DNA from: Bacteroidota bacterium
GTDB lineage: Bacteria; Bacteroidota; Bacteroidia; UBA8524
Assembly: GCA_008933805.1 (NCBI GenBank)
Contig: WBUH01000010.1
Span: 1 to 37,819, forward strand
Direction of reading: 5' to 3'
Length of the DNA stretch: 37,819 nucleotides
Made by a program: the position numbers and the translations under genes. Below, piece by piece: positions 9,354 to 20,352 of the stretch (the stretch's first letter is position 1; every line of letters begins with the position of its first letter). The notes beneath the pieces are model-generated. The model did not search any database and had not been told where the DNA came from. It worked only from the letters and a program-made list of their open reading frames with translations.

Positions 9354-11039
9354 TTATTTTATCGCTGCTTCAACCTTTGCGATAAGATCATCTGCTTTAG
9401 CATGGTTCACCGCCAATAGTTGTTGAGCTCGGTCTTTTATATCATCGGCAAAAGCACGGTCTTTTAAACCCTGTGCATTCACAAGCACATTAAAGTATGC
9501 CCCGCGAACGGCTGTTTTCACGCATAGTACTCCCACACCTGCATCAGTGATACTATTGGGGTTACCCTTTTCAATCATTTGTCCTAGCAATACCAATCCG
9601 CTGTAAGCAGTTTCCATTACTTTATACGGAACTTGGCAAGCATATTTCGTGGCTTCTTCAATAGCCAATGAACGGGCTTTTTTCTCCTCGTCGTTAGACT
9701 TAGGCAACCCAAATGCTTCCATAATGCGATTAAATGCGCGGGTGTCTTCATCCACATCAGCAATCAATGCCTTTTTAAGTTCTTGGCCGTTTTTAGCCCA
9801 TTCTGAAAAGAACTCGCGTTTGTCTTCCCATCCGCGTTTATCTGCGCTTAAATTGGCTACCATTGCGCCTAATGACACGCCCAATGCTCCAACATAGGCA
9901 GCTATTGAACCACCACCCGGTGCCGGGCTATCGCTGGCCGTTTCATTGGCAAACTCTTTTAAAGTCATGTTTACCAATCTTTCATCGGCTATGCTGCGCA
10001 GTTTGTATTCAATAATTTTCTCGTTAGGATTAAACGGACCTAACTCGTCCAGTCCCATTGATTTAATCGCAATAAAGATTAGTTCTTCTTCGCTCACCCC
10101 TTCACTGCGGCCTTGCTTGTTCAAAAAGTAGCGTCCGGCCTCTAACATTGCTTGTAAGGGTATCAATCCTACCAATTCTGAACCTGTAACTCTCACTCCC
10201 CTTGCAGTAGCTTTGTTGCACACCTCATCAAAAGCCATGTGCACCGAGGTTACATTCATATTGGTAAGGTTCATGCTTATTTGCGCCACACCGTATTCTT
10301 CAATGTACCAACCAATGGCTTTTACCGCCTTTAATGTACCCGGAATACGGACAGGCTCGCCGTTTTCATCCAACACCAATTCGCCTAATACAGGGTGGCC
10401 GATGCGTTTGTTACGACCTGCTTCGCGCACATCAAACGCTATTGCGTTGGCTATACGGGTTGATTTTGTATTTAGGTTAACATTATAGGCAATTAGAAAA
10501 TCGCGTGCCCCAATTACTGTAGCACCGCGTTTTGCATCAAACACCGCAGGCCCGAAATCAGGCTTCCATTCAGGTAATTTGATTTTATCAAAGAAGCCTT
10601 CGTATTCACCGGCACGTATTACCGAAAGATTGCTGCGGTTTTTGTCTGCTTGAGCCTCTTCGTATAAATAGATGGGCAGGTTCAGTTCTTCTCCTACCCT
10701 TTTTGCCAATTTTTGAGCATACTTGGCAGTTTCTTCCATACTGATGCCTGCAACGGGTATCAACGGGCACACATCTGTAGCACCCATACGTGGATGCTCA
10801 CCGGTGTGTTTGCTCATATCTATTACTTCACCGGCCTTTTTTATTGCTTGGTAAGCCGCTTCTATCACAGCATCAGGTTCACCCACAAAAGTTACTACGG
10901 TGCGGTTAGTAGCTTTGCCGGGGTCTACATCTAACAACCTTACCCCCTCAACGGCTTCAATTACATCTGTAATCTGCTTTATTACCGCCATATCGCGGCC
11001 TTCACTAAAATTAGGCACACACTCTATAATTCTTTGCAT
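9354..11039 (-). CDS. Bifunctional formimidoyltransferase-cyclodeaminase
   Basis: The protein of about 561 residues fuses two folate enzymes. The N-terminal part (about 1-300) is glutamate formimidoyltransferase: it opens with MQRIIECVPNFSEGRD and carries the signature HTGEHPRMGATDVCP with the family's catalytic histidine. The C-terminal part (about 350-560) is formiminotetrahydrofolate cyclodeaminase, marked by SDSPAPGGGSIAAYVGALG. Together they move a formimino group from formiminoglutamate to tetrahydrofolate and release ammonia, giving 5,10-methenyl-THF; this is the last step of one histidine degradation route. I start at ATG 11039; an in-frame TTG at 11060 overlaps the promoter -7 box. 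No other hut gene is in the window. Confidence 0.96.
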   Translation of the reverse strand: MQRIIECVPNFSEGRDMAVIKQITDVIEAVEGVRLLDVDPGKATNRTVVTFVGEPDAVIEAAYQAIKKAGEVIDMSKHTGEHPRMGATDVCPLIPVAGISMEETAKYAQKLAKRVGEELNLPIYLYEEAQADKNRSNLSVIRAGEYEGFFDKIKLPEWKPDFGPAVFDAKRGATVIGARDFLIAYNVNLNTKSTRIANAIAFDVREAGRNKRIGHPVLGELVLDENGEPVRIPGTLKAVKAIGWYIEEYGVAQISMNLTNMNVTSVHMAFDEVCNKATARGVRVTGSELVGLIPLQAMLEAGRYFLNKQGRSEGVSEEELIFIAIKSMGLDELGPFNPNEKIIEYKLRSIADERLVNMTLKEFANETASDSPAPGGGSIAAYVGALGVSLGAMVANLSADKRGWEDKREFFSEWAKNGQELKKALIADVDEDTRAFNRIMEAFGLPKSNDEEKKARSLAIEEATKYACQVPYKVMETAYSGLVLLGQMIEKGNPNSITDAGVGVLCVKTAVRGAYFNVLVNAQGLKDRAFADDIKDRAQQLLAVNHAKADDLIAKVEAAIK

Positions 11040-11057
11040 AACACGTTCAGTTTGCGG

Positions 11058-11088
11058 CAAAAATAGTGGGTATTACCACAATATGAAA
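11058..11088 (-). promoter_or_regulatory. Probable promoter of the formimidoyltransferase-cyclodeaminase gene
   Basis: On the minus strand TTTC (11088-11085) is followed after 19 bases by TATTTTTG (11065-11058), a perfect -7 element. The start codon at 11039 follows after a leader of roughly 12-15 bases. Confidence 0.5.
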
Positions 11089-11124: not shown

Positions 11125-11553
11125 TTAGTTTATTTGGTTCCCTTCGCAATCTTCATTGCTTATTTCAATGGGCAGCTCTACCCCATCTAATATTCTCGCA
11201 CGGTGTTGTGAGCCCCATTCGTGCAAAGCACGTATTACTTTCCCAAGTGTTTTTCCGTACTCCGTCATTTCATATTCAACAGTAACGGGGGTTGTTGCGT
11301 AAACTTTGCGTGCAACTAATTGGTTCACCTCCAAATCCTTCAACTCTTTAGAGAGCATTTTTGCAGTCACACTTCCAATTTGTCGTTGCAACTCCATAAA
11401 GCGCAAAGGTGTTCCTTGGTGCAGCAACTCAAACAATATAGGCAGTTTCCACTTACCACCTACAATTTCAAGCGTATCAGTTATTGGCCTCATGTGGGCC
11501 TTACATTCTACCTTGGTTCTCACCTGTCCATCCATAACTACTGTCGTTTCCAT
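11125..11553 (-). CDS. HxlR family winged-helix transcriptional regulator
   Basis: From ATG 11553 the product is 142 residues, slightly longer than most members. The HxlR pattern is clear: an N-terminal cysteine (Cys17), then ITDTLEIVGGKWKLPILFEL, LRFMELQRQIGSVTAKML, the helix LKDLEVNQLVAR, and the wing TTPVTVEYEMTEYGKTL. Members are dimers that often sense reactive electrophiles or oxidants through the N-terminal cysteine and repress a divergent gene. That layout is seen here with the DoxX-like gene at 11648. An upstream in-frame TTG (11592) would lie upstream of the promoter's -7 box, so I reject it. A palindrome between the two genes is a likely binding site. Confidence 0.9.
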   Translation of the reverse strand: METTVVMDGQVRTKVECKAHMRPITDTLEIVGGKWKLPILFELLHQGTPLRFMELQRQIGSVTAKMLSKELKDLEVNQLVARKVYATTPVTVEYEMTEYGKTLGKVIRALHEWGSQHRARILDGVELPIEISNEDCEGNQIN

Positions 11554-11563
11554 AAATATACTC

Positions 11564-11581
11564 TTGTAAACTACTATACAA
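11564..11581. promoter_or_regulatory. Candidate HxlR-type operator
   Basis: TTGTA (11564-11568) and TACAA (11577-11581) form an inverted repeat with an 8-base spacer. It overlaps the end of the regulator's -7 box and its likely transcription start, where a bound dimer would block transcription. Found by eye only. Confidence 0.35.
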
Positions 11582-11609
11582 AAGTAAACCAATATATTTT
11601 ATATACCAA
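11579..11609 (-). promoter_or_regulatory. Probable promoter of the HxlR regulator
   Basis: On the minus strand TTGG (11609-11606) is followed after 19 bases by TACTTTTG (11586-11579), a perfect -7 element. The leader to the ATG at 11553 would be about 20 bases. Confidence 0.5.
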
Positions 11610-11647
11610 CATCATCCATCTTTGTTCCAACATTAATTTTTTTAACA

Positions 11648-12025
11648 ATGAAAAAAGCAACAACGATAGCCCGCATTCTGTTGGGCGCAATCTTTACATT
11701 ATTCTCTCTGATGTACTTCTTTAATATGATGCCTGCACAAGAAATGCACGGTGCAACAGCAACCTTCATGACGGGCCTGTTCAGCTCTGGCTATATGATG
11801 ACTCTGGTAAAAGCGATTGAACTTATTTGCGGAATTGCATTAATCACGGGGCAATTTGTACCACTAACCACTGTTGTAATCTTCCCGATTACCCTTAACA
11901 TTTTCTTATTTCACGCTTTTCTTGAGCCTGCTTCAGTAGCCATGTCGATAGTGTTGCTGGCATTAAACCTGTTTCTCGCCTACACACAAAAAGAGCGTTA
12001 CCAACTAATACTTGCGCGTAAATAA
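11648..12025 (+). CDS. DoxX-like small membrane protein
   Basis: The 125-residue product has four predicted membrane helices: about 5-25 (ARILLGAIFTLFSLMYFF), 45-70 (YMMTLVKAIELICGIALITG), 74-90 (LTTVVIFPITLNIFLF) and 95-112. The spacing, the G/A-rich first helix and the basic C-terminus (QKERYQLILARK) fit the DoxX/DoxD-like family, whose members are often linked to redox or thiol stress. It is divergent from an HxlR regulator with 94 bases between the starts, which suggests control by that regulator. A weak -7-like CATCTTTG lies at 11617. The family call is from helix pattern and context; the biochemical activity is unknown. Confidence 0.8.
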   Translation: MKKATTIARILLGAIFTLFSLMYFFNMMPAQEMHGATATFMTGLFSSGYMMTLVKAIELICGIALITGQFVPLTTVVIFPITLNIFLFHAFLEPASVAMSIVLLALNLFLAYTQKERYQLILARK

Positions 12026-12050
12026 GCCCTGTACAAGAATTCAATAAAGC

Positions 12051-12082
12051 AAAAAAGGAGCAACCAAGGTTGCTCCTTTTTT
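12051..12082. terminator. Bidirectional rho-independent terminator
   Basis: AAAAAAGGAGCAACC (12051-12065) pairs perfectly with GGTTGCTCCTTTTTT (12068-12082). It ends both the DoxX-like gene (+) and the second gldM gene (-). Confidence 0.93.
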
Positions 12083-12101
12083 ATTATCAGCTTCGCAAAA
12101 T

Positions 12102-13625
12102 CTATCTAACCGTGTAAGAAATATCAGGCATTGTATTAGCACCCAAAGGGCCTGTTCCCTTTATCTCGCTAAATATGATAACATCGCCCTTTTTAAGCGT
12201 GTTAATTTGGTCTTTAATATTTTGAGGAACAGCACTGCCTATTATGGATATAGGCCCTATAAAATCATTCTTACGGCGGATAAGACAACTGTAGGAGGTT
12301 ACCTTATAAGAGACCCCTGCAAAACCTATATCGTAAGCAGGCACAGCAAACAAGTTGTTTTGTGCTAAAATAACCCCTTTTGATTCAGTAGATGGTTTTA
12401 AACCGCCCAATTGCGCACTTGGGGGAGGCGGAGTTTTAGCTCTAAACACATATTGCCCGAAACTTTTAATTGAGCCGTCATCATTACGTACAGAAATATT
12501 TATCGTAACATTTCCTTTGGCGTTTACCCTCGCGATGTATTGATTGTCGCGGACTTTTGCCAAAGACCCGTTACTGATAGTGGCGATAACCCTATCGGTT
12601 GGCACACCGGGCACTGAAATTGAAATAGGGTTTTCTAATCCCATATACAGTACTTTCATTGCATCGGCAGATACTGCTGCAAACCCGCTAAAAACATTGT
12701 AGGTAGTGCTAAACGGATATTCTTTCAAACCGTCGCGTCCTTTCACCTTTATCACCCCTTTTACGGTTTGTTCCCCTTGAGTTGTTGCCTGTTTTGAATA
12801 GTTAAACATCCCATTTGGAGCAGCATAAGTTTGCCCGTCAAGCACTATCTCTGCTGCCTGCTTACTATCCGATGCAGCAAGAAAAATATCGGCTTCAAAC
12901 TTATCACCGGCCATCACAAAAGGTTTTTTCGGAACAATATGAGCCTCAAGCACATCAATGGTAACAGGCCCAACGCCGGTTTTACTGTAAAGCACATTCA
13001 AAACATCGGCATAGGTATTTTTGCAATCGTTCTGAAGCTTTGTCATAGTTGCCATTACCGCGGCAATGGGAACCCCCTCAAAGTTTATCACCTCCCATGT
13101 TTTACCGTTTTCATCAAGGGTATATAAATCAGTACGGATATTCTTGCGGTCTTCTTGGGGCACTAAGGCAATCATGCGGTCGCGTGCTTCATTAATTCGT
13201 CGTTTCAATTCGGCTGCTTTACCTTTATTCAGTAAAATATTGGCATGTTTCTCTGTATTGTCACTGTTTTTTAATTCAGCTTCTTTACCTGAGTCATCAA
13301 CAACTCTGCCGCCGCTTTCATCTGCCAATTCTTTCTTTAATTGCTCAATGTACTTTACAAAGTCTTCAGAAATCACTCTCCCCTGCTGTGCTTTCGCTTC
13401 CCATTCTTTGGTACGTTCGGGCTGGTTTTTCATCAAATCGGCAAAACTTTGTAACACGAAGTTGTTTTTTGCATCGATATTCTCACCCGTTTTGCGCATG
13501 CTTACCTCCATCATATAAAAGGCTTTCAGCACTTCCGCACTCACATTTAAGGCCAAAATGGCCAATAGCACCAGATACATCATGTTGATCATCTTTTGGC
13601 GCAAGCTTAGTTTTCCTGTTGCCAT
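12102..13625 (-). CDS. Second GldM paralogue (T9SS motor arm), GldM'
   Basis: The 507-residue product is collinear with the gldM product in the same cluster (511 residues). Both start with the same cytosolic-plus-helix segment, RQKMINMMYLVL followed by ALNVS, which is the single membrane helix that sits inside the GldL pentamer. Then comes a long periplasmic region of helical and beta domains, sharing FEADIFLAASDSKQ / FEADVLLVAYDSKQ and MGLENPISISVPG / IGLDNPISISVPG. The C-terminal domain contacts GldK/GldN in known systems. It is last in a separate gldN'-gldM' unit, 106 bases after gldN', and ends at a strong terminator. The frame is intact, so it is probably functional. Confidence 0.93.
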   Translation of the reverse strand: MATGKLSLRQKMINMMYLVLLAILALNVSAEVLKAFYMMEVSMRKTGENIDAKNNFVLQSFADLMKNQPERTKEWEAKAQQGRVISEDFVKYIEQLKKELADESGGRVVDDSGKEAELKNSDNTEKHANILLNKGKAAELKRRINEARDRMIALVPQEDRKNIRTDLYTLDENGKTWEVINFEGVPIAAVMATMTKLQNDCKNTYADVLNVLYSKTGVGPVTIDVLEAHIVPKKPFVMAGDKFEADIFLAASDSKQAAEIVLDGQTYAAPNGMFNYSKQATTQGEQTVKGVIKVKGRDGLKEYPFSTTYNVFSGFAAVSADAMKVLYMGLENPISISVPGVPTDRVIATISNGSLAKVRDNQYIARVNAKGNVTINISVRNDDGSIKSFGQYVFRAKTPPPPSAQLGGLKPSTESKGVILAQNNLFAVPAYDIGFAGVSYKVTSYSCLIRRKNDFIGPISIIGSAVPQNIKDQINTLKKGDVIIFSEIKGTGPLGANTMPDISYTVR

Positions 13626-13731
13626 AGGTTTAGTTATTAGTTAAGGTTATTGGTTTGTATATGAAATAAGGGAGCCGTTCGGGCTGCTTACACAACCCGT
13701 TACCAGCATTTATATGAAAAAAGTTATTTGA

Positions 13732-14547
13732 TTAGTATTCCCACAAATCGTGTTCGGTTTCCATCAGCTTTAATCTGATTTGCTCCGATTGATAAAGGGC
13801 GGCCAGTGAATTATCCGCAAACTCTTCCATTTGGCTTATTGGTAAATCAAATGCATTGGGGTATTTGGTTACATAACTGCTAAACAGCCGACCTTGAAAG
13901 AAATGGTCGAAGGAAACGCTAGCACGTTCATTGTGTACATTCAACATCTTATTTTGCACCAGTTGCGGGCGCAAATCATCATACTTCACCCAAAACAAAG
14001 GCATCTCAGGCAATTCAACACCGGCTACAATAGGTTTATACATTAGTGCCATGCCCACAATGCGGGGTATCATTCTACTTTGCTCGCTGTCAAAAATCCA
14101 TTCTTCAACAATCTTCCATTTGGTCATTTTCTCCAAATCAGGCTCTTCACAAATCGTTTGTTCACATAAATCCTCAGGGTCAACAGCGTCGGGACAAAGA
14201 GTATATACAATGTGGCAATAGCGTCCTAATGTAGGAATTGTTGTATCTACATAAATTTCTGTAAACTCATTGTTTTTATAGGCGGGAACCTGTCCCGTTA
14301 AAACAGCTTGATAAACCAACGCACTTAAACTGTTTTGCGGCCAGTTAAGGGCAATATTCTGCTTCTCACGTGTATCAATAATACGTTCAAGCGTCCATTG
14401 GAATGCTGCATCTGCTTCGCGTAAAGGCTCATAAGGGACGGCAGTAGCAGTAATATCTCGGGTAGGTTCTGGCAGGGGTTGAGCATTGCCAAAAGTACAT
14501 AGCATTGTCACCACACCCCATAAGGTGTATTTCAAAAATTCAGGCAT
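13732..14547 (-). CDS. Second GldN paralogue with a four-cysteine insertion, GldN'
   Basis: The 271-residue product has a signal peptide ending in FGNA-QP. It shares with GldN the block LREAD.AFQ...ER.IDTREKQN, the block KW.V.E.WIFD...S.MI.RI, ELPE.PLFWV, and the identical end EHDLWEY. Residues 105-137 differ: they carry Cys111, Cys118, Cys128 and Cys133, none of which is in GldN, and probably form a disulfide-bonded loop in the periplasm. F. johnsoniae also has a second GldN-like protein (GldO), so a paralogue as such is known. It follows a terminator after gldN and is paired with gldM'. It may build an alternative periplasmic ring with GldK. Confidence 0.92.
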   Translation of the reverse strand: MPEFLKYTLWGVVTMLCTFGNAQPLPEPTRDITATAVPYEPLREADAAFQWTLERIIDTREKQNIALNWPQNSLSALVYQAVLTGQVPAYKNNEFTEIYVDTTIPTLGRYCHIVYTLCPDAVDPEDLCEQTICEEPDLEKMTKWKIVEEWIFDSEQSRMIPRIVGMALMYKPIVAGVELPEMPLFWVKYDDLRPQLVQNKMLNVHNERASVSFDHFFQGRLFSSYVTKYPNAFDLPISQMEEFADNSLAALYQSEQIRLKLMETEHDLWEY

Positions 14548-14696
14548 AACAAATTGGTTTAAAGTGGAGTAGCTATATTTTCATAGCGGCGATTTAATGT
14601 ATAACGCCCTCCTTAAACACCTTATTGTTATACTAAAGAATTTGTTCAGGCTTTTCGATGAATGGAAACCAAACTACCAGAATCAAATAAAACAAA

Positions 14697-14722
14697 AAAG
14701 CCATCCCGTTTGGGATGGCTTT
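14697..14722 (-). terminator. Terminator between gldN and gldN'
   Basis: AAAGCCATCCC (14697-14707) pairs perfectly with GGGATGGCTTT (14712-14722) around a 4-base loop. On the minus strand it is followed by TTTTGTTTTATTT. It closes the porP-gldKLMN operon and separates it from gldN'-gldM'. Confidence 0.9.
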
Positions 14723-14739
14723 AAATATTATGTGGGGTA

Positions 14740-15576
14740 TTAATACTCCCAAAGGTCATGCTCCATTTCGAAAAGCTTTTGTTTCATACGCTCACCTTCA
14801 AGCAAGGCAGCCATACTATTGTCTTTAAACTCTTCGTAATCACGGATCATGTAATCGTATGCGTTGCTCCACTTAATGATGTAGCTGCTAAACATTCTTT
14901 TTTCAAAGAAATGAGCCATTGAAATACGGGCAGCATCATTAAAGGGGTTAAACATCTCTTGGTTTGTAAGTACTTTCTCACGAGTTTCATCCCAACGAAC
15001 CCAAAACAAAGGAGTTTCCGGTAATTCTAAACCGGCAGCGATAGGCTTAAACAAAGGAGCAATTGCAATAATACGTACAATCATTACGCTATGTTTAGTA
15101 TCGAAAATCCAGTCTTCCATTACCCTCCACTTTTGAATTTTTTCAGCATCAAACTCAGTGGTAATAACAGTATCAATCAAATCGTAGATATCGTCTGGGT
15201 TATTGGGGTTTGGTATTTGCTTTTGCTCTTTAATCGCACCGCGGTCAATAACTTCCTCAGCAGTAAATACTGATGAAAGAGAATCATTACGGTAGGCAAC
15301 CAAAGTACCATCCAACACCTTGCCGAAAACTATTTTACCCATGTGATTCCTTGGCCATGTAAGGCAAAGGTTTTGTTTCTCGCGGGTGTCAATTACCCTT
15401 TCAACCCTTTTTTGGTAAGCCACATCGGCTTCACGCAAACCTGGGTAAGGGATTGCTTTGCGTTCTTTTACAGCATCGTGAGAAAACGTGAAGTCTTCAA
15501 AATTTTGCTGAGCATTGGCAAACCCTGCAACAAAAAGCAGGATAAAAATTCCGAAATATTTTTTAATACTGTTCAT
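14740..15576 (-). CDS. gldN: T9SS/gliding protein GldN (PorN)
   Basis: The 278-residue periplasmic protein has a signal peptide ending in GFANA-QQ. It belongs to the GldN/PorN family, shown by the block READVAYQKRVERVIDTREK, the block KWRVMEDWIFDTKHSVMIVR, ELPETPLFWVRWDETREKV and the final EHDLWEY. In P. gingivalis, PorN and the lipoprotein PorK form large periplasmic rings that help couple the inner-membrane motor to the outer-membrane translocon. Its start lies 8 bases after the gldM stop, so the two are co-transcribed. It is the last gene before a strong terminator. Confidence 0.96.
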   Translation of the reverse strand: MNSIKKYFGIFILLFVAGFANAQQNFEDFTFSHDAVKERKAIPYPGLREADVAYQKRVERVIDTREKQNLCLTWPRNHMGKIVFGKVLDGTLVAYRNDSLSSVFTAEEVIDRGAIKEQKQIPNPNNPDDIYDLIDTVITTEFDAEKIQKWRVMEDWIFDTKHSVMIVRIIAIAPLFKPIAAGLELPETPLFWVRWDETREKVLTNQEMFNPFNDAARISMAHFFEKRMFSSYIIKWSNAYDYMIRDYEEFKDNSMAALLEGERMKQKLFEMEHDLWEY

Positions 15577-15584
15577 AATACTTT

Positions 15585-17120
15585 TTATCGGGCTGTAATA
15601 ACCACAGGGGCCAAACCACGTGTACCATCAGGACCTGTAGCTCTAATCTGGTCGATGATAATCCTATCGCCTGATTTCAAGCTGCTGATTAATGATGAAG
15701 CAGCGTTAAGTGTAGCACCTGTACCTTGTACCTGACGTATTTCACCACGTTTTGGTACTAAAAGGAAGGTATAGCTAATGATATTGTAACTAACACCTTC
15801 GTATGCAAAACCTTCTCCAAGAGAACCAATCATACGTACAGCGTTAGCTTTAATAGTACCTGTTGTTTCAGTAGCACCGTTTTGCAAGGTACCCAATTGG
15901 GCAACCGGCATAGGGATTTTACGAACACGGAACTTAGCTGAACCCATTGGGCGTGAACCACCTTTATCGTCTTTAACAGTTACGCTAATGGTAACTTCTC
16001 CCCTGGTAGTAACATTAGCTATATAGCTTGTGCTACCGGTTTTCTTAAGAGTACCGCCACCACTTAGGCTAGCAGTAACACTTTCAGGAGGGAAACCAGG
16101 AACTGAAATCGAAATAGGGTTATCCAAACCTATGTACAACACATTCATTTTGTCTGCAGAAATTGTAGCAGCACCTTTAAATACTGTGTACTGGGTTTCA
16201 AACTCAAGTTTTTGAGCACCATCTTTACCTTGGAAATCGATATAACCTTTAACTGTCTGTGTACCTTCGGCACTAGTAGGAGTTTCGTACTTAGCAACAC
16301 CGTCAACAGGCTTGATAGTACTTCCGTTGATGATTACATCATTGCTTTGTTTTGAATCGTAAGCAACTAGTAAAACATCAGCTTCAAACTTACCGCCTGA
16401 AATAACAAAACCAGATTTTGGGATAATTTTAGCAACTACCTTGTCAAAAGTTTGGCTTGATTTATCAATAGCTTTAGCTAGAGTTTCCAAAACTTGAGCT
16501 TCAGTATTTTTAGCGTCGTTTTTGATTTTTTCGAACAAGGTAACAACCGCAGCAGCAGGAGAGTGTTCAAACAACTCCGATTCCCATGTTTGGGGGGCTT
16601 TCTTGGGGTCATCAATTGCCATCAAATCAGATTTGATACGCTTTTGGTCTTCTTTGTCTAGCAGTCCTAAAAGCTTATCACGGGTTTCGTTAATTTTAGC
16701 TTTTAGTTTCTTGCCTTCACCTTCATTGATAAGCATGTTAGCATGCATTTCAATGTTATCGTTCATTGCAAGTTCTGCTTCGGGGCTGTTATTTTCTTTA
16801 CGGCCGCCGGCACCAGTTTCAACCTTTTTCTTTAACTCGTCAACGTATTTAATAAAGTCAGAAGCGATTTTATCGGCTTCTTGAGCTTTCTTATAGTAAG
16901 GACCTACTTTTTCAGGTCTCTTAGCATTATCAGCAGCAAAAGCAGCTAATATGTCTTTGTTTTTTCCGTCAATATTTACACCTGACTTACTCATGGATAA
17001 CTCCACCAGGTGAAATGCATGCAGGATGTCTTTTGATACGTTTAGCGCCAACAAAGCTGTTAACACCAAATACATCATGTTGATCATCTTCTGCCTTACT
17101 GTGGTTTTACCTCCAGCCAT
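15585..17120 (-). CDS. gldM: T9SS/gliding motor protein GldM (PorM)
   Basis: The 511-residue product starts with a short cytosolic tail and one membrane helix (about 14-30, MMYLVLTALLALNVS), the standard GldM N-terminus. It continues with a long periplasmic part: a helical bundle (about 40-220) and beta domains in the second half (motifs FEADVLLVAYDSKQ, IGLDNPISISVPG, and a final ATGPDGTRGLAPVVITAR). Two GldM copies sit in a ring of five GldL; proton flow through that complex is thought to turn GldM and power secretion and gliding. It lies 45 bases after gldL and 8 bases before gldN. Confidence 0.97.
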   Translation of the reverse strand: MAGGKTTVRQKMINMMYLVLTALLALNVSKDILHAFHLVELSMSKSGVNIDGKNKDILAAFAADNAKRPEKVGPYYKKAQEADKIASDFIKYVDELKKKVETGAGGRKENNSPEAELAMNDNIEMHANMLINEGEGKKLKAKINETRDKLLGLLDKEDQKRIKSDLMAIDDPKKAPQTWESELFEHSPAAAVVTLFEKIKNDAKNTEAQVLETLAKAIDKSSQTFDKVVAKIIPKSGFVISGGKFEADVLLVAYDSKQSNDVIINGSTIKPVDGVAKYETPTSAEGTQTVKGYIDFQGKDGAQKLEFETQYTVFKGAATISADKMNVLYIGLDNPISISVPGFPPESVTASLSGGGTLKKTGSTSYIANVTTRGEVTISVTVKDDKGGSRPMGSAKFRVRKIPMPVAQLGTLQNGATETTGTIKANAVRMIGSLGEGFAYEGVSYNIISYTFLLVPKRGEIRQVQGTGATLNAASSLISSLKSGDRIIIDQIRATGPDGTRGLAPVVITAR

Positions 17121-17165: not shown

Positions 17166-17822
17166 TTAGGCACCTTGTTTACCCATAGCTGAAAGCATGC
17201 TACCATAAATAGTATTAAGGCTAGAAAGGTTTTGAGTAAGCCTGTTCATTTCGGTAGTAATATGCTCAACTTGGCTTTGGTATTCTTTAGTACCTTGTGA
17301 AATTGCAGCCAAAGTATTCATGGCGTCAGCAGCACGGTGGTATGAAGAGTTAACTTCTTCCAAAGATTTTGAAGCTTTTTGAACGTTATCAGTATATTCT
17401 GAAGTAGCCACAGAAGCATTTGTAAGATTGCTCATGCTTGAAACGTTATCGCTCAATGATTTCAAACCTGAACCTAGGCTGTTAATCAAATCAGGAGTAA
17501 CTTTTGCTTCTTCTAGCATTTTATCCAACTGCTGTGAAATAGTACCTTTATTGGTCTCAACCTTTTTGGTGTTCTCGCTGGGTTCCATACCTGCTAATTC
17601 AGGATAAACAAGAGTCCAATCTGGTTCTTGGTGAGGAGGTTCAAATGCAGATACAAAGAAGATAAGAGCTTCAGTGCCCAAACCTACAATCAACATCACG
17701 TCGGCACCCGGCCAGTGCATGATCTTAAAAAGTGCGCCTATGATTACCACGGCGGCTCCAATACCATACATCTTAGCCATTATGTTCTTGCCGGCTTTGC
17801 TTTCGAAGAAATTTTTGCTCAT
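17166..17822 (-). CDS. gldL: T9SS/gliding motor stator protein GldL (PorL)
   Basis: I start at ATG 17822 (MSKNFFESKAGKN), giving 218 residues; an extension to 17891 adds 23 non-conserved residues. There are two membrane helices, about 19-35 (YGIGAAVVIIGALFKIM) and 42-60, linked by HWPGAD. Glu51, in GLGTEALIFF in the second helix, corresponds to the glutamate essential for proton use in F. johnsoniae GldL. The cytosolic C-terminal part (about 70-218) is polar and helical, with coiled-coil character. GldL forms the pentameric proton channel around the GldM helices. It is in the order K-L-M-N typical of this operon. Confidence 0.96.
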   Translation of the reverse strand: MSKNFFESKAGKNIMAKMYGIGAAVVIIGALFKIMHWPGADVMLIVGLGTEALIFFVSAFEPPHQEPDWTLVYPELAGMEPSENTKKVETNKGTISQQLDKMLEEAKVTPDLINSLGSGLKSLSDNVSSMSNLTNASVATSEYTDNVQKASKSLEEVNSSYHRAADAMNTLAAISQGTKEYQSQVEHITTEMNRLTQNLSSLNTIYGSMLSAMGKQGA

Positions 17823-17931
17823 TTTTTGGTGTTTGTTAAAGGTTAAAACTTGGTTTTTTAAGGTGTTTTTTGGTTTAACGCTGTCACGCAAAACCTTAGT
17901 ATAAAGTTAAGTTAATTTTTGCTTAATTATA

Positions 17932-19191
17932 TTATTCTTTATCCCTGTTTGAACGGCCTATGTAGCTCATCACACAACGGAAACCGATGTATGATTTTGC
18001 AGTATCCTGGAACTCGAATGCACGGCTACCGGTTTGTATGAAGAATGACACATCCTTCCATGAGCCACCACGGATAACTTTACGTTTAAGCGAAGCAGGC
18101 TCATCATTTTTGGCATCGTATTGCAAATCTGAGTTCAAATCGTGAGTAACAATATGTGATTCATCAGCATATGCGCTCACAGTCCATTCTGATACGTTAC
18201 CAGACATACCGTATAATCCATAATCATTGGGGAAGTATGAGTAACCCCTTACCGGATATACACCACCATCGGCTTGGTAATCACCACGACCGGGTTTAAA
18301 GTTGGCTAAGAAACAGCCTTTTGAGTTACGAGTGTAAGGACCACCCCAAGGATACATGCTACCATCACGTCCACCGCGTGCTGCAAATTCCCATTCGTAT
18401 TCTGTTGGAAGACGGAAAGGAGTTACAATAGGCTCACCCAAAGACACATAATAGTCATTTAGGTAACCGGTACGCCAGTGGCTGAATGCACGAGCTTGGT
18501 GCCAATCAACGCCTACTACAGGATAGTCATCGTATTTTGGATGCCAGTAGTACATCTGGGTCATTGGTTCGTTAAACGAGTATGTGAAATCACGTACCCA
18601 AACCAATGTATCAGGATAAATTCCAACGGTTTCTTTACGAATAAACTCGTTACGTTTGGCACCCTCAGCAGCATGTGCAGCAGCTCTTAGGTCAATCCAT
18701 TCGTAGTAGTAAAGAAGTTTACGAGAATCTACACCTGCTTGTCCGTAGTATCTCTCGCTTTCAGGCACGTACATATCGGCTTCTAATTGCTCCACTATTT
18801 CCTGGTCGTTCCAATCAATAACCTCATCGCGGTTAATACGTTGGTTGCCATTATCATCTTCTGAAACATAAGGGTCTCCTAAGATGTAGCGAGCCATAGA
18901 GTCGATAACGTACTCTACAAATTGCCTGTACTCGTTGTTGGTAATTTCGGTGTCATCCATGTAAAAAGCAGTTACAGTAATCTGCTTGTTAGGTGCCCTA
19001 TGGGTAAAGAAAACGTCCATATCGGCCTGACCCGCATGAAATGTACCTGTGGGCACGTAGATGGTTCCGTACGGTTGAGGATGGAACCAAGGCTTACGGC
19101 CCTGAACGCCAATCAGTTCCCCTTCCATATTATTGGCACAGCCAGATAATACAAGGGTTGCTACGATCAGCAGTTGAGTGAGGTTTTTCAT
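17932..19191 (-). CDS. gldK: T9SS/gliding lipoprotein GldK (PorK)
   Basis: I start at ATG 19191, which gives 419 residues and a proper lipoprotein signal (MKNLTQLL...LSGC, with the Cys at about 18); a start at 19257 would add 22 residues before it. The mature protein has a sulfatase-modifying/formylglycine-generating-enzyme-like fold: PVVGVDWHQARAFSHWRTG, FRLPTEYEWEFAARGG, YPWGG, GLYGMSGNVSEW, VIRGGSW and GFRCV are all visible. In GldK/PorK this fold has a structural role. It sits on the inner face of the outer membrane and forms rings with GldN. It lies 109 bases before gldL and 135 bases after porP/sprF. Confidence 0.96.
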   Translation of the reverse strand: MKNLTQLLIVATLVLSGCANNMEGELIGVQGRKPWFHPQPYGTIYVPTGTFHAGQADMDVFFTHRAPNKQITVTAFYMDDTEITNNEYRQFVEYVIDSMARYILGDPYVSEDDNGNQRINRDEVIDWNDQEIVEQLEADMYVPESERYYGQAGVDSRKLLYYYEWIDLRAAAHAAEGAKRNEFIRKETVGIYPDTLVWVRDFTYSFNEPMTQMYYWHPKYDDYPVVGVDWHQARAFSHWRTGYLNDYYVSLGEPIVTPFRLPTEYEWEFAARGGRDGSMYPWGGPYTRNSKGCFLANFKPGRGDYQADGGVYPVRGYSYFPNDYGLYGMSGNVSEWTVSAYADESHIVTHDLNSDLQYDAKNDEPASLKRKVIRGGSWKDVSFFIQTGSRAFEFQDTAKSYIGFRCVMSYIGRSNRDKE

Positions 19192-19326
19192 CACAAAGTT
19201 TTTTTTCAATTTGGCAATATTAAAAATTTCCACAATATGTTCCAACATCTTCTTCATATTTCACCTATAATCCTTCTAACGGTAGTGGTTTTTATTTTAT
19301 TGTACAGTATGTGAATAAATTGTTGA

Positions 19327-20352
19327 TTAGCGGTAACCTCCCAGTCGGCGTTGGTCTATCAGCCATTTTGGTACTGGGGCTGGGGTTGTAATATTAAAGC
19401 AATAGCTTGCAAAAATTTCATGGGTACCTCCTCCTGCTAATCCGCGGGTAATGGGTACATCGTAAGCATAGCCTAGGTAAAATTGAGGCTTAACATAGTA
19501 TCCCAATTGCAAGCTAAACGCATCTAAGTATGAACTTTTACCACCATCACGGTATGATAAACCGGCAACGTATTGTTGGTTAAACAAAGCGCGGCAGTTT
19601 AAATCAACCTGTGTGGTTGCAAAAATTGTTTTTACCCAAATGTTTGGCTGTAATATTATTCCATTTGCTAATGGGTGTGTTGTACTTGCTACAACGTATA
19701 TGTTACGTGCAATAGCAACATTTTGTGTTTGACCTAGAACGTCGTAAGAAACCGAACCACCTAATAAGTGGGTAGCAGAAACACCAACCTCTAAATTTTC
19801 AAGAGCTTCATTATTATAGAACAAGCCGGCACCTAAATCCATTTTGCGGCCTGAAGTAACTCCATTAGGAATCAAGGGGTCGTTAGGGTCGCGAGGGTTG
19901 TAATAGCTACCGTCAAATTCTTTTTGAAGCATGCCTACATCCAAGCCCATTTGAAGACGTTGTCCTCTGCTAAGTTTTAGATGGTATGCATAGCTGAATT
20001 TAACGTTAATGGTACGCTCATAACCAACAGCGTCACTCATAAACACTAAGCCTACACCGCTGTTGATTTTTTTGATTGGCATGGTAACGTTACCAAAATA
20101 GGTTTGCGGACCTACGGCACGTCTTTCTAAAGACTGTCCCGTCGGAGCTTTGTACTCCAAACTACCGTCTTTATATCCAACCCATTGCCTGTGGGCAAGT
20201 ACGTTGGCACAAATAGCATCTTTAAAACCTGCTGCACCGGGATTATACGCAATCCGGTTTAGCATAAAATGGCTATAATAAGGATCTTGCTGGGCTTTTG
20301 CCGCGTATGCTACCACTACAAGAAATAATACAATGGTAAATCTTTTAATCAT
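19327..20352 (-). CDS. PorP/SprF family T9SS outer-membrane protein
   Basis: The 341-residue product has a signal peptide ending in AAKAQQ, then the PorP/SprF family start QDPYYSHFMLNRIAYNPGAAG. Alternating aromatic and glycine-rich strands through the rest (GVGLVFMSDAVGY, FSYAYHLKL, LQLGYYVKPQFYLGYAYDVP, HEIFASYCFN) are those of an outer-membrane beta-barrel. The last 15 residues form a short periplasmic tail. P. gingivalis PorP is part of the T9SS, and F. johnsoniae SprF is needed to secrete SprB. Being first in the gldKLMN operon, as porP is in P. gingivalis, favours a core role. Whether to call it porP or sprF cannot be settled from sequence alone. Confidence 0.93.
   Translation of the reverse strand: MIKRFTIVLFLVVVAYAAKAQQDPYYSHFMLNRIAYNPGAAGFKDAICANVLAHRQWVGYKDGSLEYKAPTGQSLERRAVGPQTYFGNVTMPIKKINSGVGLVFMSDAVGYERTINVKFSYAYHLKLSRGQRLQMGLDVGMLQKEFDGSYYNPRDPNDPLIPNGVTSGRKMDLGAGLFYNNEALENLEVGVSATHLLGGSVSYDVLGQTQNVAIARNIYVVASTTHPLANGIILQPNIWVKTIFATTQVDLNCRALFNQQYVAGLSYRDGGKSSYLDAFSLQLGYYVKPQFYLGYAYDVPITRGLAGGGTHEIFASYCFNITTPAPVPKWLIDQRRLGGYR

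Follow-up and report, generated by a model that had tools for sequence, protein, structure and literature searches.

We describe a second pair of genes for a motor arm and a ring subunit, gldM' and gldN', lying next to the gldKLMN operon of the type IX secretion system (T9SS) in a Bacteroidota bacterium. The DNA analyzed here (the window) covers positions 1 to 37,819 of contig WBUH01000010.1 (assembly GCA_008933805.1), which is contig 10 of a genome of 4.29 Mb in 40 contigs (G000). The two added genes are full-length members of the GldM and GldN families, the pair is shared with relatives in the same family, and the divergence of the second GldM is greatest in its last domain, D4. The reading that we favor, with a probability of about one half, is that the pair would provide a further arm, reworked at its tip, together with a variant ring subunit, both working on one GldK and on the operon GldL, perhaps for another load or another condition.

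Identity and divergence of the second pair

All genes of the cluster are on the minus strand, in the order porP-gldK-gldL-gldM-gldN-hairpin-gldN'-gldM'. The canonical motor arm gldM (15585..17120, 511 aa) and the canonical ring subunit gldN (14740..15576, 278 aa) come first, gldN' (13732..14547, 271 aa) is directly downstream of gldN, and gldM' (12102..13625, 507 aa) follows. A first-pass annotation made from the letters alone had described second copies on the same strand in the reversed order gldM-gldN-gldN'-gldM', with four full-length frames and with signatures shared within each pair (RQKMINMMYLVL in both GldM, EHDLWEY in both GldN). Coordinates, strand, and order agree with this description, none of the four frames has an internal stop, and both signatures are found where they were said to be.

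Both arm proteins pass the curated NCBIfam model TIGR03517 (cut-off 180; 358 bits for gldM and 340 bits for gldM'), and each has all four GldM Pfam domains (PF12081, PF21601, PF21602, and PF12080) above cut-offs. Both ring proteins pass TIGR03523 (cut-off 86; 159 bits for gldN and 119 bits for gldN') and PF19841 (173 bits for gldN'). Aligned to each other, M and M' are 44% identical across 514 columns (E-value 6e-140), and N and N' are 43% identical across 280 columns (E-value 2e-79), which is similarity far beyond chance. Predicted structures confirm the GldM fold of M' and the PorN fold of N': the AlphaFold2 model of M' (pLDDT 82) has PorM and GldM structures as its top matches, and the model of N' (pLDDT 83) has PorN as its only strong match (Z 17-20, with the next match at 2.6).

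Which parts of these proteins touch each other is known from published work. PorM D4 alone binds PorN (Leone et al., PMC5790014). In a 2025 paper on the PorKN ring, residue S460 in PorM D4 cross-links to A241 of PorN, PorM sits on loops 4 and 6 of PorN, and the N- and C-terminal helices of PorN together with its loop 7 sit on PorK (PMC12421860). Another 2025 paper argues that GldN supplies the contacts on which motors push (PMC12635249).

For each domain of the arm we took the ratio of the divergence among M' to the divergence among M. In the family of the window (f1), the ratios are 1.6x for the transmembrane (TM) helix, 1.3x for D1, 1.0x for D2, 2.0x for D3, and 3.6x for D4; D4 against the rest has a p-value of 2e-9, in a test that, like those that follow, treats sites as independent and uses few genomes. 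For other linked second GldMs, the D4 ratio is 2.4x in the lineage that we call group B (p 0.004) and 4.5x in family f9 (p 2e-10). For unlinked second GldMs, whose groups share one older origin and count as one event, it is 5.7x in f37, 3.3x in f43, 2.7x in f21, and 2.0x in f4, f10, f45, and f25 taken together. The D1-D2 ratios range from 0.6x to 2.4x across groups, except for D2 in f9, and in the unlinked second GldMs D1 and D2 are mostly at or under the canonical rate.

At the motor end, all 25 aligned GldM, M' included, have the same two residues in the motor helix, Arg9 and Tyr17. The gldM' product, an N-terminal TM helix followed by D1-D4, keeps the single helix, with these two residues, that in GldM lies in the GldL pentamer. 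A change specific to D4 fits an alternative arm. As for the ring subunit, the excess change of N' in the window family is found at residues 81-157, and none of it is in the K-binding C-terminal helix, which is as conserved in gldN' as in the family's canonical GldN.

Age, gene order, and recurrence

Four relatives of the same family were compared (G001, G002, G003, and G004; loci L120-L123), of which the first three match, in length, the public contigs WGMZ01000038, SBGR01000079, and DQHT01000111. In trees of 124 and 81 GldM, the window M' clusters with the relatives' M' (SH-aLRT 97 and 98) and the window M with the relatives' M (96 and 95), therefore the duplication predates the spread of the family. 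A very recent duplication of gldM in this strain only was also considered; a clade of just the window M and M' is 21.5 log units worse, with an approximately unbiased (AU) test p of 0.09, too high for a firm rejection. Diagnostic residues are a weak guide to orthology (6 of 39 columns for M', 2 of 18 for N') and we do not take them as proof.

Between the window and the relatives, identity is about 70% for K and L, 55-57% for M and N, and 40-43% for M' and N'. Among M' of G001-G003, nonsynonymous divergence (dN) is 0.25 and synonymous divergence (dS) is saturated, which precludes dN/dS figures. Such a low protein distance against saturated synonymous change means that M' and N' are under purifying selection, though they change faster, and both look retained rather than decaying.

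In three of the four relatives (G001-G003, L120-L122), the locus reads porP-K-L-M-N-M'-N'-anchor gene. The anchor is a glutamate formimidoyltransferase-cyclodeaminase-like gene (9354..11060, minus strand, named from its own sequence). The window and all of L120-L123 carry it on the downstream side of the pair, so this is a single shared locus in which N' and M' have traded places in the window. An HxlR regulator (minus strand) and a DoxX-like gene (plus strand) that lie between gldM' and the anchor in the window (11125..12025) are absent from the corresponding position in the relatives. The mirrored order, which the relatives do not share, is a local secondary rearrangement, probably without functional meaning of its own. 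Alternatively, it may come from a fresh copy of gldN and the loss of the old N', which would explain the order simply. At the joints of the window copies, the intergenic DNA is clean: it holds no leftover of either gene from the older arrangement, and no repeats of at least 20 bases were found. The order N-N'-M' arises independently in L087 and L158, with a gene for an ABC-type ATPase between N' and M' in L158. In L087 (5277-6722), N, N', and M' are intact and the first gldM is in several pieces; a sequencing error is likely there because gldK is split too.

How far does the pair extend beyond its family? Matched duplication of M and N recurs independently beside gldKLMN in other lineages, as a linked M-N-M'-N' in group B (L033, L043, L052, L054, L058, and L064) and in f24 (L157). 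There is also a linked M' without a linked N' in most of f9 (L159, L076, and L090), in f2 (L124), and in L027, and many genomes of the class have an extra N alone. Second GldMs that are not linked to the operon form a deeper clade, which covers several other families. One old M' clade for the whole class was rejected: joining the M' of f1 to those of group B gives an AU p of 2.6e-45, and adding f24 and f9 gives 4e-26. By these trees, M' and N' arise repeatedly and not from one class-wide M'N' subsystem; M' has a clade of its own within the family but not across the class.

Extra copies of the two genes are strongly associated across genomes. Using 158 genomes of the class, with doubtful split genes left out and with extra copies counted whether linked or not, at least two GldN are present in 29 of the 41 genomes with at least two GldM vs. 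20 of the 107 others (uncorrected for kinship). Co-occurrence, which the first-pass annotation had named as a check, is found in the window and in G001, G002, and G003; the pair is not obligatory, given the second GldMs that have no linked second GldN. Nor are the copies sporadic within the family, where they are old, conserved, and co-inherited, but they are decayed in one relative, and in another lineage some members lack them.

A complementary type of duplication, K-L-M-N-K', is present in Prolixibacteraceae and kin (L070, L071, L078, L079, L081, and L083-L086), in which a second GldK comes right after gldN.

The operon and its genomic context

Upstream of gldM are the gldL of the operon (17166..17891; TIGR03513 and PF22827), whose listed start is TTG and whose true start is probably at a later ATG, gldK for the outer-membrane ring lipoprotein (17932..19257; TIGR03525, 561 bits), and, at the head of the cluster, a porP/sprF-family gene (19327..20352; PF11751 and TIGR03519), all on the minus strand. 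Two terminator-like hairpins are on the same strand, one between gldN and gldN' (14697..14722), which matches the consensus, and another 3' of gldM' (12050..12083), which comes from a terminator scan. That scan has no excess of hits, with 3 in the region vs. 3.7 in shuffled sequences. We take the gldN hairpin seriously because relatives carry one at the same place: three of them have a similar stem and T-run there. Since gldN' and gldM' come after this hairpin, they probably form a transcription unit of their own and may be under separate control. A scan for sigma-70-type promoters found fewer sites than in shuffles, using a consensus that is not informative for Bacteroidota, and in a scan for TAnnTTTG-like sites the single, weak near-match lies upstream of gldN'; we do not use it.

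A genome search finds one GldK and one GldJ only, and at least 150 T9SS C-terminal signals. A single GldK/GldL set had been proposed to serve both arms. This is right for GldK and for the operon, which has one gldK and one gldL upstream of the pair; it is incomplete for the genome, which has one other, very divergent, GldL. That GldL belongs to a third, very divergent GldL-GldM pair on contig 9 (L008:7464-13488, at about 71.5-77.5 kb), where the third GldM has 509 aa and 102 bits to TIGR03517, below the cut-off. After the pair come two further proteins with PorG-like barrels, one at 128.7 bits (cut-off 130) and the other, which has an OmpA domain, with a weaker barrel match; no GldK or GldN adjoins the pair. 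This locus looks like a separate module of a motor and outer-membrane proteins. With the third GldM as query, only ordinary GldM were matched in other members of the family; G001-G003 each have one weak second GldL match.

Two more proteins of this genome resemble parts of the machine. One (L010:4352-5656, contig 17) looks secreted and has a match to the third GldM domain followed by MORN-variant repeats, as a stand-alone GldM domain. The other (L009:9728-10834, contig 16) has 368 aa and a weak GldN match at residues 212-323; a NPNNPDDIYDLID-like motif recurs in it.

Competing explanations and known systems

In the scenario that we favor, an old duplication left the ancestor of the family with an extra GldM and an extra GldN next to its T9SS operon. 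M' would enter the same motor, that of the operon GldL, as an alternative arm. Its altered tip would then push a ring, or a track, where N' takes the place of N or joins it on the shared GldK, and the outcome would be a drive for secretion or gliding that is tuned or regulated differently.

Several observations weigh against this scenario. D4 is accelerated also where there is no linked second GldN (three of four f9 genomes and the orphan clade), therefore the change of the tip cannot depend on N' alone. In group B, N' is faster everywhere, with an excess spread more evenly and not at one face. Loops 4 and 6 of PorN, which bind PorM, would lie within N' 81-157, judging by the order of labelled regions. 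Orthology of N' between the window and the relatives has a support of 56/94, and an AU p of 0.46 for a clade of the window N and N'; the window N' may be the ortholog of the relatives' N' or a fresh gldN copy, with the old one lost. Finally, in G004 (80% complete; L123:2527-3609), residues 1-208 of M' run in frame into the second half of N', and there is an in-frame stop in the M' part, which may be a decayed pair or an assembly fault.

The best surviving alternative, to which we give a minor but real chance, is that M' and N' are spare copies, that is, partly redundant back-up or dosage copies, less needed and therefore quicker to drift, which are sometimes lost. The rate at which M' and N' evolve is indeed 1.5-4 times that of M and N, the pair is decayed in G004 and absent from the group B relatives L047 and L061, and there is the precedent of GldO, a GldN paralogue partially redundant with GldN (PMC9127263). 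Drift, however, is expected along the whole protein, but the excess is largely confined to D4 (p 1e-9 in the window family), and from the TM helix to D2 the unlinked second GldMs are no faster than canonical ones. The pair is intact in four genomes that are 55-60% identical in M.

Another possibility, which we find unlikely, is a mixed machine with an M:M' heterodimeric arm and with N' mixed with N in one ring, the duplicates making a single motor asymmetric. In the GldM dimer, one D4 is thought to contact PorN while its counterpart stays free (PMC12421860), so that one arm could lose its contact with the ring, and M' does keep the dimerizing region of TM, D1, and D2. On the other hand, D2 and D3 exchange strands, which would here have to pack across partners that are 40-49% identical in these domains, and a unit set apart by a hairpin suggests separate control. 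As for an assembly error hiding a true gldM-gldN-gldM'-gldN', the fragmented genome, a comparison without a second member of the genus, and the other order in relatives would allow it, but the clean, repeat-free joints and the two independent cases of N-N'-M' make it very improbable.

Returning to the favored reading of an alternative arm, we can ask whether it extends to the second GldMs of Bacteroidota in general. Tentatively, and with doubts that outweigh our confidence, these could be exchangeable arms, conserved at the end that binds GldL and altered at the tip. A single type of proton-driven GldL motor would then be able to drive various rings, tracks, or adhesin carriers, and some lineages would add a matched second GldN. 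In three genomes of family f37 (L160, L161, and L162), the gene directly after the unlinked second GldM, on the same strand, encodes a conserved adhesin-like protein of about 750 aa with Ig-like repeats, a possible clue to a dedicated load. At several other unlinked second GldM loci, a sigma-factor-like gene is next to or near GldM.

GldLM is one of the few known proton-driven rotary motors, and the surface that it pushes has only recently been argued to be GldN. Natural second arms that differ mainly in the ring-contact domain are ready variants for testing the transfer of force from arm to ring, the exchange of arms, and whether gliding and secretion have different arms. The D4 rule is also a means of telling canonical from alternative GldM in genome annotation.

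The matched pair had been proposed as an undescribed variant system. In open-access full texts (subscription papers and preprints being outside the scope), neither a second gldM-gldN pair linked to the operon nor the D4 pattern turned up; the components of the pair have published counterparts in GldO and in the extra porM orthologues of F. johnsoniae (PMC5790014). With GldKLMN/PorKLMN, M' and N' share family membership by cut-offs, domains, fold, and a position adjoining gldKLMN. Unlike that system, the window has a second M and N with no second K or L beside the operon, and the D4 of M' is strongly diverged. The extra porM/gldM orthologues of F. johnsoniae are alike in being additional full-length GldM in one genome; gldM' differs in that it adjoins the operon and has a second GldN as its partner, and in the text of PMC5790014 we found no account of the D4 or the function of the former. 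GldO of Flavobacterium johnsoniae likewise belongs to the GldN family and comes right after gldN, but gldN' is accompanied by a second GldM, in a pair that is old within its own family and presumably of independent origin.

Flagellar motors have alternative stators, MotAB with PomAB or MotCD. If our reading is right, and only then, the likeness would be that of exchangeable force-transmitting units on one machine. There is no sequence relation between the two, and here the duplicated parts are the arm and the ring subunit that it touches, not a whole stator.

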